Source: Acidimicrobiales bacterium (GTDB lineage Bacteria > Actinomycetota > Acidimicrobiia > Acidimicrobiales > Iamiaceae). From it: a stretch of 37,682 bases of DNA. The stretch lies in contig JAOBWM010000172.1 of NCBI GenBank assembly GCA_025463365.1, positions 1 to 37,682 of the forward strand, read 5' to 3'. Below, one piece after another: positions 1,893 to 6,110 of this stretch (position 1 is its first letter; the number at the start of each line of letters is the position of its first letter). The notes below the pieces were generated by a model. The model did no database searches and was not told the origin of the DNA. It saw nothing but the letters and a program-made list of their open reading frames with translations. The translations under genes were made by a program, and so were the position numbers.

Positions 1893-2080
1893 TTCTGAGC
1901 GCTCTGTGTCGCATGGGTGCGACGCCCGGCGCTCAGAACCGGGGTGGTTGGCTGACCTCTCGCTTCTGAGCGCTCTGCGTCGCATGGGCGCGACGCCCGG
2001 CGCTCAGAACCGGGGTGGTGGCTGCACCAATCGCTTCTGAGCGCCCTGTGTCGCGTGCGTGCGACGCCAGGCGCTCAAAA
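1893..2080. repeat. Three tandem 46-nt hairpin repeats (cluster A), 71-bp period
   Basis: Copies start at 1893, 1964 and 2035, exactly 71 bp apart. Each is a 46-nt imperfect palindrome: outer arm TTCTGAGCGC / GCGCTCAGAA, inner arm GTCGC / GCGAC, and a 6-nt loop (ATGGGT, ATGGGC or GTGCGT). The 25-nt spacers are also related (CGGGGTGGT.GGCT). Copy 3 ends in CTCAAAA instead of CTCAGAA. The cluster fills the 346-bp gap between two plus-strand genes, and I see no gene in it. The same element recurs at 4353-4678. There is no U-run after the stem, so it is not a textbook terminator. Confidence 0.9.
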
Positions 2081-2163
2081 GGGGGCGCGGTGGGATGGCA
2101 CACCGAGGATCCAGAGATAAGGAGAGGGGCTGAGTGTCACCCCCTCTGGGCATGATCTGAGCC

Positions 2164-3132
2164 ATGGATCCGGCGAAGCGGTTGGCGATCGACCACGTGG
2201 CGAGCAGCCAGTTCGGCCACATCACGCGTCTGCAGTTGGCCGATTGCGACGTGCATCGGTCGACGGTGGACCGTTGGCTCCGCTCGGGCGCCCTGGTTCG
2301 GGCCGGGACACGCACGTTCCGATTGGCGGGGGTGCCGACCTCGGCGCAGGGATGCGTGGCGGCGGCGTGCATCGACACGAACGGCGTGGCCTCGCACTGG
2401 TCCGCGGCTTGGCTCCACGGACTCGTCTCTGATCTGCGAGCGATCGATGTCACGGTTCCGAAGGGGTCGAGCAGCGCGCGGGGTGCGGCGCCGGTCCGGA
2501 TCGGTGCTCGAGACGTTCGGGTGCACACGTCGACCAGCGTCCCCTTGGACGACATCCTGATCGTTCGGGGCGTGCAAACCATGAGCGTCGCCCGGACCTT
2601 GATGGGGCTGGCCGCGATGGTGCCGATCGAGCTCGACGAGGCCGCGCTCCTCGCCATCGTCTCGACGGCCGTCGATGACCGGAAGGCATCGGATCCGTGG
2701 CTCTGGTGGCTCCTGGCCCGGCGCCGGTGTCGAGGTCGCAATGGGGTGCTCGCCCTCGAGGCTGCGCTGGCCGAGCGTGCTCGCCTCGGGCCCACGGAGA
2801 GTTGGCTCGAGCGGGAGTTCCTGCGGGTGCTCGAGGCCAACGGCGTGCCCTTGCCCCGCACCCAGCGGGTCATCCGGCGGGCCGGACGCTTCGCCGCCAG
2901 GGTGGACTGCTCCTACGACGACGAAGATCTGATCGTCGAGGCACTCGGGTACGCGTTCCATCGCTCGAGGGAGCAGATGGCGGCCGACGTTCGTCGGATC
3001 AACGAGCTGCAACTCGGCGGGCGAACCGTGCTGCAGTTCACGACCTCGCAGATCGTGGAACAGCCCGTCTGGGTCGCTCGCACGGTGCACGAGCACTTGC
3101 TCGCTCGACGCGCTCGGTCCGGTGCGGCATGA
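2164..3132 (+). CDS. AbiEi-antitoxin-like / DUF559 (Vsr-fold) protein
   Basis: This protein has 322 residues. The N-terminal 60 residues (HVASSQFGHITRLQLADC, STVDRWLRSGALVRAG) look like the winged-helix domain of the type IV AbiEi antitoxin family. The C-terminus, about 210-300, has the layout of the DUF559/very-short-patch-repair nuclease fold: ESWLEREFLRVLEANG, RVDCSYDDEDLIVEALGYAFH, then an Arg/Asn helix. The usual E.DG centre reads VEALG, so the second acidic residue is missing and nuclease activity is doubtful. No AbiEii-type nucleotidyltransferase toxin is adjacent. Such orphan proteins are common in actinobacteria and their role is not established. The ATG at 2164 is preceded by CATGAT seven bases upstream, close to the leaderless pattern seen at other genes here. 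The stop lies 22 bp from the end of the convergent acyl-CoA dehydrogenase. Confidence 0.8.
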   Translation: MDPAKRLAIDHVASSQFGHITRLQLADCDVHRSTVDRWLRSGALVRAGTRTFRLAGVPTSAQGCVAAACIDTNGVASHWSAAWLHGLVSDLRAIDVTVPKGSSSARGAAPVRIGARDVRVHTSTSVPLDDILIVRGVQTMSVARTLMGLAAMVPIELDEAALLAIVSTAVDDRKASDPWLWWLLARRRCRGRNGVLALEAALAERARLGPTESWLEREFLRVLEANGVPLPRTQRVIRRAGRFAARVDCSYDDEDLIVEALGYAFHRSREQMAADVRRINELQLGGRTVLQFTTSQIVEQPVWVARTVHEHLLARRARSGAA

Positions 3133-3154
3133 GCGGAGTTCGGCTGCCGTCGGA

Positions 3155-4291
3155 TCATGCCCTCGGAAGACCCAGCAGTCGGTCGGCCACGATCGTGCGG
3201 AGGATCTGCGTGGTCCCGCCCATCAGGGTGTACGCCGGGGCGTAGACGAGGTTTCGGGCCACGCGGAAGGCAAGGTCGTCGGCACTGGGCTCAGTGGGCG
3301 ACCATGCCTGCGCACGCGCGCCGAGCACCCGCCCGCAGAACGTGGCCACCCGCTGCTCGTGCTCGGTGCACGCGGTCTTGGCGGCGGCGGAGAACTGTTG
3401 TGGGGCCTGCCCGACCACCTCTCTCAGGACGAGCAGCCGCCCGATCCGATAGCCGGACTCGATGGCCGCGAGCTCCTGGCGCATCCTCGGATCCGATCGG
3501 TCTACGAACGGGAGGCAATCGAGGTACATCCGACGATTGCTGACGAGGCGATCGATGCCGCCCCGCTCATGCTCCATCTGGCGCATCACCTGGCGGAACG
3601 AGCCGTTCGGCTCGCCGATCAGGTGGTCGGCGGGCACGTGGACGTCGTCGAAGGTCACCTCGCAGAAGTGGCGATCTCCGGTCTGGTCGACGATTGGTCG
3701 CACGTCGATGCCCGGCAAGGTCATGTCGACCACGAGCTCGGACAGGCCGGCGTGGGGCTTGGCAGTGGGGTCGGTGCGGGCGATCAGGTAGCACCAGTCG
3801 GCGACCGCGGCCCCGCTGGTCCAGACCTTGGTCCCGGTGACGCGCCACCCGCCGGCGGGATCCGGCGTTGCTCGCGTGCGCAGGGAGGCCACGTCGGAGC
3901 CGGCGTCGGGCTCGCTCATGCCGATGCACCACGTGTCAGTGCCCGCAAGGATCCCGGGAAGCCAACGCTCCTGCTGCGCGCTCGAGCCGAACTGGAGCAA
4001 CGTCGGCCCGATCTGGCGGTCGGCGAAGTAGCACGAGGCCAGCGGCGCCCCCTCGGAGATGAGCGCCTCGAACACGACGAACCGCTCCAGCGCCGGACGG
4101 CCGCCGCCGCCGACGGCCGTCGGCCACGTCATCCCCAGCCACGATCGCCGGGCGAGCTCGAGCGCGAGGTCAGGATCGTGCCCGACCAACCAGCCGTCCT
4201 CGCGGATCGGCCGCCGATCCGCTGCGGCCCGACCGACCGCGGTGGCTTCCCTGGCCAATGCCAGCAGCGAGGGGTCGAGCCGGAATTCCAT
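3155..4291 (-). CDS. Acyl-CoA dehydrogenase
   Basis: This 378-residue flavoenzyme would oxidise an acyl-CoA to the 2-enoyl-CoA. The FAD/substrate motif MSEPDAGSDVASLRTRA lies near residues 120-136, followed by VTGTKVWTSGA. The C-terminus (LMGGTTQILRTIVADRLLG, about 355-373) is the usual FAD-contacting segment. The MCAD-type catalytic Glu position (YEGT) reads GGT. A Glu in MEHERGGIDR may serve instead, as in isovaleryl-CoA-type enzymes; that is an inference. I chose the ATG at 4291 over an upstream one at 4372 because the protein then has normal family length and TAGGTT (plus strand 4300-4305) stands 8 nt before it, the leaderless pattern. The upstream choice would also run into the hairpin cluster. 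No partner acyl-CoA gene is adjacent, so the substrate cannot be named. Confidence 0.93.
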   Translation of the reverse strand: MEFRLDPSLLALAREATAVGRAAADRRPIREDGWLVGHDPDLALELARRSWLGMTWPTAVGGGGRPALERFVVFEALISEGAPLASCYFADRQIGPTLLQFGSSAQQERWLPGILAGTDTWCIGMSEPDAGSDVASLRTRATPDPAGGWRVTGTKVWTSGAAVADWCYLIARTDPTAKPHAGLSELVVDMTLPGIDVRPIVDQTGDRHFCEVTFDDVHVPADHLIGEPNGSFRQVMRQMEHERGGIDRLVSNRRMYLDCLPFVDRSDPRMRQELAAIESGYRIGRLLVLREVVGQAPQQFSAAAKTACTEHEQRVATFCGRVLGARAQAWSPTEPSADDLAFRVARNLVYAPAYTLMGGTTQILRTIVADRLLGLPRA

Positions 4292-4352
4292 GTCGGCCGA
4301 ACCTAGCCAGGCCCTCCCCGTCGATGGCCAGCGGTCAATCGGTCGCAGTCCG

Positions 4353-4678
4353 TTCCGAGCGCCCCGTGTCACATGGGTGCGACGTGGGCCGCTCGGAAAC
4401 CGCAGTCGGGTGGTCTGGCGGTTGGCGGGGGGCGCGTCGTTTCTGAGCGGCCTGTGTCGCGTGGGTGCGACGTGGGCCGCTCAGAAACCGCATCGGGGTG
4501 GTCTGGCGGGTAGCTCTGGGTGGCGGGTCGTTTCTGAGCGGTCTGTGTCGCGTGGGTGCGACGTGGGCCGCTCAGAAACCGCAGCGGGGTGGTCTGGCGG
4601 TTGGGGGTTGGGTGTTGGGTGGCCGCGACGTTTCTGGGCGGTCTGTGTCGCGTGGGTGCGACGTGGGCCGCTCAGAAA
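4353..4678. repeat. Four hairpin repeats (cluster B), same family as cluster A
   Basis: 46-nt cores start at 4353, 4441, 4532 and 4632. Copies 2 and 3 have perfect 12-bp outer arms GTTTCTGAGCGG / CCGCTCAGAAAC. Copy 1 carries a double change, TTCCGAG with CTCGGAA, that preserves pairing. Copy 4 has TTTCTGGGCGG, a G.U-compatible change. The inner arm GTCGC / GCGAC with loop GTGGGT is kept in copies 2-4; copy 1 has GTCAC. Spacing is 88, 91 and 100 bp, unlike the regular cluster A. The cluster sits between the divergent acyl-CoA dehydrogenase and quinone oxidoreductase genes, in an otherwise gene-free 523-bp gap. Confidence 0.9.
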
Positions 4679-5804: not shown

Positions 5805-6110
5805 GCCCGGCCCGGTCTGAGGCTGAGCCCGGCCCGGACCGGCTCGGGGTGAGTCCGGCCCGGTTTGAGTCCGGCCCGGCCCGGTTCGGCGTGAGTCCGG
5901 CCCGGTCTGAGTCCTGCCCGGTCTGAGCCCGGTCCGGTCTGAGGCTGAGGCCGGCCCGGTCCGGAGCCCGGCCCGGTCTGAGCCCGGTCTGAGTCCGGTC
6001 CGGCTCGGCGTGAGTCCGGCCCGGTCTGAGCCCGGTCCGGTGCGGTCTGAGTCCGACCTGAGCCCGGCCCGGTCTGCGCTGAGTCCGACCCGAGCCCGGC
6101 CCGGGCCGAC
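5802..6110. repeat. Nested TGAG/CCGG tandem array
   Basis: From 5802 on, TGAG recurs with unit lengths 16, 6, 26, 16, 26, 16, 16, 16, 6, 33, 11, 21, 16, 21, 11 and 21. All but the 33 equal 1+5n; the 33 contains a unit that lost its T. Within units the building block is a 5-mer of the form YCCGG. A typical 16-mer is TGAGTCCGGCCCGGTC. The array degenerates into CCGG-rich DNA up to about 6150. It fills the 350-bp gap between two convergent genes. I see no gene or simple terminator in it. Confidence 0.88.

Follow-up and report, generated by a model that had tools for sequence, protein, structure and literature searches.

Seven copies of a 46-nt hairpin lie in two clusters, A (1893-2080, three copies) and B (4353-4677, four copies), within a 37,682-nt stretch of DNA from an Acidimicrobiales bacterium (contig JAOBWM010000172.1; the whole stretch is referred to here as the window), and between the clusters sits a gene whose product joins an AbiEi-type part to a Vsr/DUF559-type nuclease domain. 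Homologues of this gene are paired with palindromes in other genomes, paralogues in a single genome have private stems, the hairpins have multiplied in one species, the nuclease residues are kept, and an array has been inserted into a formerly short gene junction. We think it likely that these hairpins serve as DNA sites in a selfish repeat system of two parts, whose nuclease is unrelated to the REP-associated tyrosine transposases (RAYTs) of repetitive extragenic palindromic (REP) sequences, and that the nuclease may mobilise the repeats. Such a kind of self-spreading repeat system in bacteria seems not to have been described before; an initial annotation of this DNA, made from the sequence alone, did not link the nuclease gene to the repeats. 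Somewhat more tentatively, we suggest that it could be a REP-like form of selfish DNA that makes up a new class, common across Acidimicrobiia and found in other classes of the phylum too. An AbiEi/Vsr fusion would then use its own 46-bp dyads for homing and would multiply them, with a private site for each gene lineage.

Pairing of the nuclease gene with palindromes

There is good support for a pairing between gene and repeat. The genome that holds the window (G000, 4.31 Mb) was compared with other genomes and loci, denoted by G- and L-numbers; comparison of the element loci between genomes places homologues of the partner gene at four of the 34 G015 element loci, and a protein search yields 51 homologue places in 16 genomes. 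Near copies of the window stem are not found beside the paralogues, and the pairing emerged once other stems were allowed. Among the 15 homologues of 40% identity or more, 11 have elements on both sides according to a finder that uses the TTCT and AGAA feet, a count that includes the window, whose second array stands past the next gene. A feet-free bracket test, requiring similar palindromes within 500 nt on each side of the gene, is passed at a similarity of at least 0.75 by 29/51 homologue places and 4/639 random control intervals (Fisher p 4e-33), the controls being made up of G000 loci (2/208), loci of Y1 enzymes (1/56) and other bacteria (1/375). At a threshold of 0.70 the counts are 33/51 and 19/639, and at 0.65 they are 36/51 and 74/639.

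Homologues of the partner gene are present in 90 of 296 genomes sampled across the phylum, and in a second set of 30 loci, taken from a G234-homologue search of 296 genomes of the phylum, seven pass the bracket test, including L376 and L385 outside the class. Farther AbiEi/DUF559 homologues (L344, L416, L418, L419, L420 and L425) are bracketed by near-identical palindromes, and L431, L360, L372 and L385 are likewise distant homologues inside near-identical palindrome pairs. The palindromes of these ten loci are 34-50 nt long and most lack the TTCT/AGAA feet, so the pairing of gene and palindrome is wider than the 46-nt family.

Private stems and dispersed families

Paralogues of one genome carry different stems. 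The stem of the window gene is GAGCGC and that of its G000 paralogue C149 is TTGTGT, with unrelated palindromes at C166, C151 and C54; the G015 paralogues have GTCGCG, GAGCCA, GGCGCG and GACCGC, and those of G013 have GAGGCA, CGGTAC and GGTCTG (Table 1). Where two or more copies stand away from such a nuclease gene we speak of a dispersed family, and 8 of 12 such families (G014 being excluded as ambiguous) share their stem, as judged by eye, with a nuclease gene of the same genome: GAGCGC in G000, GTCGCG and GAGCCA in G015, GAGGCA and GGTCTG in G013, TTGTG in G144, TGCGTC in G138, and GGTCCG in G102. A perfect TTGTGCAG-type hairpin of G144 (L231 1035-1073) lies away from any nuclease gene and resembles the palindrome at L352 1385-1437, which adjoins another G144 AbiEi/DUF559 paralogue.

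Multiplication and insertion of arrays in one genome

The initial annotation proposed a covariance-model search for further copies. A model built from 23 G000 copies and run against the whole genome gives at least 82 distinct places at 31 sites, the seven in the window among them (149 of the 150 scored candidates matched; the C84 match among these places is weak). Of the 78 finder hits that were retained, 76 are 46 nt long. Arrays contain one to six copies, nearly always in the same direction, and 27/28 lie outside called genes; a single copy (L073 4092-4137) is within a called 998-aa open frame with a low-complexity translation there, probably an artefact of the gene caller. These are high-copy, dispersed, intergenic palindromes, which is a trait of REP sequences. 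The 28 arrays include 7 between convergent, 3 between divergent and 13 between co-directional genes, with 5 unclassified, and the 13 between co-directional genes show no bias of array direction relative to the genes (7 same, 6 opposite).

Adjacent copies less than 200 apart are spaced by 68-71 in 26 of 50 cases, and the other spacings cluster at 80-82 (7), 88-91 (6), 96-100 (4) and 107-111 (4), with three larger ones, of which 137 contains a copy missed by the finder and 184 starts at a chance palindrome. For the 20 non-modal spacings the preferred period is about 9.3 (p 0.002); helix phasing is not established, the resultant length at 10.5 bp being just 0.33.

The junction of topA and tmk (both named by Pfam) illustrates insertion. 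In G000 the gap is 407 nt with four copies inside, and in congeners it is -1 (G009), 3 (G005), 11 (G002), 51 (G010), 54 (G011), 113 (G003) and 155 nt (G004); topA was not found beside tmk in two further congeners. The G004 gap (L392 2147-2273) has two 46-nt elements of another stem, 81 nt apart. The different stems of the G000 and G004 arrays point to at least two entries into this junction.

Elements and partner gene in the window

All seven elements reported by the initial annotation, each of 46 nt, were recovered at their positions (Table 1), and their RNA folds are all more stable than those of their own shuffles (z -3.7 to -8.4; at most 1/200 shuffles equal). Several details needed correction. 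The GTCGC core ascribed to every copy is GTCAC in B1; and of the arms said to change together, the variable pair of B1 is a C.C mismatch, while A3 ends in GCTCAAAA, losing one arm pair. The near-continuous hairpin with G.U pairs described for B2 and B3 is seen on RNA folding, and in B4 too. Farther along the window, at 5805-6000 and beyond, there are degenerate tandem repeats with a GGCCCGGTCTGAG-like unit, coming after a zinc-type dehydrogenase gene.

Table 1. Coordinates of the hairpin elements and the partner gene in the window, and loci of paralogues with differing stems.
Feature	Position or loci	Strand	Remarks
Hairpin element A1	1893..1938	+	46 nt; covariance-model match
Hairpin element A2	1964..2009	+	46 nt; covariance-model match
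Hairpin element A3	2035..2080	+	46 nt; single arm pair broken; covariance-model match
Partner gene, 322 aa	2164..3132	+	AbiEi-type part (1-206) and Vsr/DUF559-type nuclease domain (about 211-317); homologues hairpin-bracketed
AbiEi-like coding stretch, residues 1-206	2164..2781	+	6y8q_A, Z 12.7, rmsd 4.5, 187 aligned
Nuclease-domain coding stretch, residues 211-317	2794..3114	+	E216, D248, E259, H266 invariant in 29/29 homologues
Hairpin element B1	4353..4398	+	46 nt, degenerate; covariance-model match
Hairpin element B2	4441..4486	+	46 nt; covariance-model match
Hairpin element B3	4532..4577	+	46 nt; covariance-model match
Hairpin element B4	4632..4677	+	46 nt; covariance-model match
Paralogue loci with differing stems, G000	L331, L350, L359, L378, L415		
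Paralogue loci with differing stems, G015	L333, L347, L357, L293		
Paralogue loci with differing stems, G013	L332, L349, L358		

The structure model of the window protein has a mean pLDDT (predicted local distance difference test) of 91.9. Residues 213-317 of the model match the homing endonuclease I-Bth0305I (3r3p; Z 12.8, root-mean-square deviation (rmsd) 2.3, 96 aligned), and the next predicted match of the nuclease domain is to Vsr (1cw0, Z 10.6). The four residues E216, D248, E259 and H266 are present in all 29 homologues and D275 in 26/29, and profile alignment puts E216 and D248 on acidic residues of Vsr. Among ten homologues tested with Pfam, AbiEi_4 is matched by nine and DUF559 by ten at an E-value of 1 or better, several of these matches being below the curated cut-offs, including both of those in the window protein; the PADLOC AbiEi models match it with an E-value of 1.2e-15. 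The gene's neighbours in the window encode an ATP-grasp/CoA-ligase and an acyl-CoA dehydrogenase, and no gene for an AbiEii nucleotidyltransferase toxin adjoins it there. Nor do the 25 commonest Pfam families show another recurrent neighbour of the repeats, in 73 neighbour proteins from relatives or in 85 from G000.

The same plan with other stems in relatives

The G000 stem itself has no match in 10 of 11 congeners at an E-value of 1e-4, and G002 has one relative of 43 nt; a strict G000-stem pattern finds no match in 84,980 species, a set from which G000's own records may be absent. Weak matches in another genus share the plan of these elements but not the stem, and the plan recurs in other Acidimicrobiia: mostly 46 nt, with TTCT/AGAA feet, a 70-71-nt spacing and different stems. 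The spacing in relatives is 70-71 in 38/44 cases and 59-60 in four. Large families occur elsewhere: two in G015 (GTCGCG and GAGCCA), one in G016 (GAGGCG), one with 47-nt elements in G144 and one with 48-nt elements in G102. Outside the feet, three genomes conserve C at -3 (85-95% of copies) and G at +3 (80-95%), so the repeat unit may be 52 bp.

Covariation was taken by the initial annotation as a sign that the fold is selected, and this holds between species and not among the copies of one genome. Within G000 the covariation score of 23 copies is not above chance (0.063 vs 0.074 for shuffles), and 6/23 are unpaired at the arm pair that varies most. When 18 cross-species copies are aligned the TTCT and AGAA feet are invariant, the loop is near TGGGT and the stems vary; pairing is seen in 95.5% of cells vs 69.3% in shuffles. 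The covariation score of these copies, part of which came from a pairing-rewarding model, is 0.663 vs 0.166, a strong signal; alignment A6 omits three relatives of 46 nt whose register differs (two from L091, L098) and the 43-nt L089 element. Independent support for the plan comes from a pairing-free pattern, TTCT-N15-CRTGGGTG-N15-AGAA, with at least 126 matches: among the matches listed the three best-paired are from Acidimicrobiia, and a fourth from this class ties with two others at 8 pairs. A search of the class with model R2 gives matches in 17/395 genomes, with 14 candidate places scored per genome, and those in G281 and G371 look like chance.

At several places (L068/L322, L074/L321, L226/L301 and L075/L311) orthologous gene ends hold arrays in two genera, each with its own stem. 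Such shared positions could be either insertion hotspots or sites of an in-place swap of the stem.

A proposed mechanism and its alternatives

In the two-part system that we propose, the autonomous part would be the gene, bracketed by arrays of its own palindrome, for a protein that joins an AbiEi-type DNA-binding part to a Vsr/EDxHD-type nuclease, and the non-autonomous part would be the same palindromic site spread as short tandem arrays in intergenic DNA. The AbiEi-like part would recognise the 46-bp palindrome, probably as two abutting 23-bp half-sites in double-stranded DNA, or alternatively as an extruded hairpin. The Vsr-like part would then cut at the palindrome or at the target, and repair would copy arrays to new places and lengthen them, so that the pair operates like REP/RAYT with an unrelated enzyme. 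The two-half-site dyad is proposed because 46 is 2 x 23 and because of the habit of AbiEi operators: according to PMC7319586, AbiEi binds two 23-bp inverted repeats with 3 bp between them, while the pairs bound by Rv2827c are separated by 13 bp. The 2 x 23 match, by analogy, leans to a double-stranded dyad.

Several observations weigh against this proposal, in which movement, binding and cutting are inferred. At the bracket threshold of 0.75, 22/51 homologues fail, and the G000 control climbs at looser thresholds (16/208 at 0.70, 56/208 at 0.65). The window locus itself fails the 500-nt test because its second array is beyond the acyl-CoA dehydrogenase gene; L341 also fails, though elements flank both its sides. 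No matching gene was found for four dispersed families, G013 GAGTGC, G013 GGCGCG, G016 GAGGCG and G234 TTGAGG. Divergence of the stems is weakly linked to that of the protein, with r 0.20 for the winged helix-turn-helix (wHTH; p 0.043, uncorrected for four tests), and in Mantel tests the link to other protein parts is not significant (whole protein p 0.11). The upstream and downstream arrays of 14 bracketed loci are direct in some and inverted in others, a variable mutual direction that is unlike transposon ends. Finally, G.T mismatches exceed A.C mismatches on the keto-loop strand, with 34 vs 18 per-locus events, or 20 vs 14 when counted per genome and position (a 47-nt hit in this count, L074:2661, is probably a chance palindrome); this excess leans to a folded single strand, as a mild tilt that is not decisive.

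The initial annotation had offered a REP-like mobile repeat, a structured RNA or a protein-binding cruciform. The first is the best of the three, the elements being dispersed, intergenic and species-specific, with the amendment that the partner is not a RAYT. The RAYT-like transposase that it suggested looking for is not there: PF01797 is absent from G000 and from 10/13 element-bearing genomes, the complete G013 among them, and 8 Y1 loci in three genomes have no adjoining 46-nt element, which rules out RAYT as the partner. From the third, a protein-binding palindrome remains likely.

One alternative is binding without movement, in which the protein autoregulates through the palindromes and its nuclease part has another role; the dispersed arrays would then be a regulon, or decoys, enlarged by slippage. 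AbiEi-like proteins do autoregulate through inverted repeats (PMC7319586), the element length equals 2 x 23, and the spacings cluster with a period near 9.3. We nonetheless regard this as unlikely, since arrays also lie downstream of the gene, about 30 sites are near unrelated genes with 7 between convergent ones, the 0.33 resultant length does not establish helix phasing, and neither the species-specific multiplication nor the invariant nuclease residues would be explained.

The repeats might instead be moved in trans by another enzyme, such as an unrecognised transposase, with the nuclease genes as hitchhikers that settle in arrays. The four dispersed families that have no matching gene and the lack of a fixed mutual direction of flanking arrays would fit, but no other neighbour recurs, the commonest Pfam families of the 73 and 85 neighbour proteins being ordinary, and hitchhiking fails to explain a private stem for each paralogue in one genome; we think this quite unlikely.

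Action at the transcript level, as a structured RNA (the second of the earlier suggestions) or a transcription terminator, is poorly supported and seems very improbable: the folds are very stable and convergent contexts (7) outnumber divergent ones (3) in G000, but array direction is unbiased relative to genes, no T-run follows the hairpins in the sequences read, Rfam gives 0 matches at the gathering score across the whole window, tandem arrays reach six copies, and congeners lack the elements at the same junctions. We give least credence of all to genome guarding, an addiction or defence module in which the nuclease attacks DNA lacking or carrying the site and the palindromes mark self or titrate the nuclease, for while the matching AbiEi models are filed under phage defence in PADLOC and the nuclease domain belongs to the restriction/Vsr type, no partner toxin gene adjoins, and titration would not need expansion to about 80 copies.

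Comparison with known systems

Few small repeats are as common in bacteria as the REP-like ones. If our proposal is right, unrelated enzymes gave rise to REP-like families on at least two occasions, and a nuclease with its own palindrome family would be a second, independent route to them; there would be thousands of naturally paired combinations of a nuclease and a long palindromic target. Such pairing would explain orphan palindrome arrays in actinobacteria, the spread of REP-like sites would become testable with a new enzyme, and AbiEi_4/DUF559 genes would gain a hypothesis of function. In open-licence papers we found no account of such a system, no link of DUF559 or Vsr-like proteins to palindromic repeats, and no mention of 'AbiEi' together with 'DUF559'.

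The dedicated REP enzymes described in the accessible text of PMC3733652 are Y1 HUH transposases only, and some REP families there have no known enzyme. The likeness to REP/RAYT systems (REPtrons), as presented in the available parts of PMC8266576 and PMC3733652, lies in the high-copy intergenic palindromes, the stems that differ between species, and a DNA-enzyme gene flanked by its own repeats, here from another superfamily (29/51 vs 4/639). The enzyme differs, however, in being an AbiEi part with a Vsr-type nuclease and not a Y1 HUH enzyme; the feet are TTCT/AGAA, with C and G three bases outside, and there is no GTAG or CGTC tag; and the copies in arrays are direct, not alternating. With neither the Y1 enzyme nor the tag, the system would work like a REPtron but is not one. 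CGTC-tagged REPs are also similar palindromes, and in the part of PMC3733652 available to us are without a known dedicated transposase, whereas here the CGTC foot tag is lacking and a dedicated gene was found.

AbiEi antitoxins and Rv2827c appear from the structure model to share the fold of residues 1-206, and their binding sites are 23-bp inverted repeats in pairs (PMC7319586). The window protein differs from the AbiEi of AbiE type IV toxin-antitoxin systems in its extra nuclease domain and in having no adjacent toxin gene, so it is not one of an AbiE pair, and its sites, unlike AbiEi operators, flank the gene on either side and are scattered through the genome. I-Bth0305I and Vsr share with it the predicted nuclease fold and the acidic and histidine residues, and the target on which I-Bth0305I dimerises is nearly 60 bp long (PMC3943268). 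In contrast to EDxHD homing endonucleases, the genes described here are free-standing and intergenic, and not in an intron, an intein or a host-gene insertion site; and they are distinguished from both I-Bth0305I and Vsr by the palindrome arrays that bracket them and by the fused AbiEi-type DNA-binding part.

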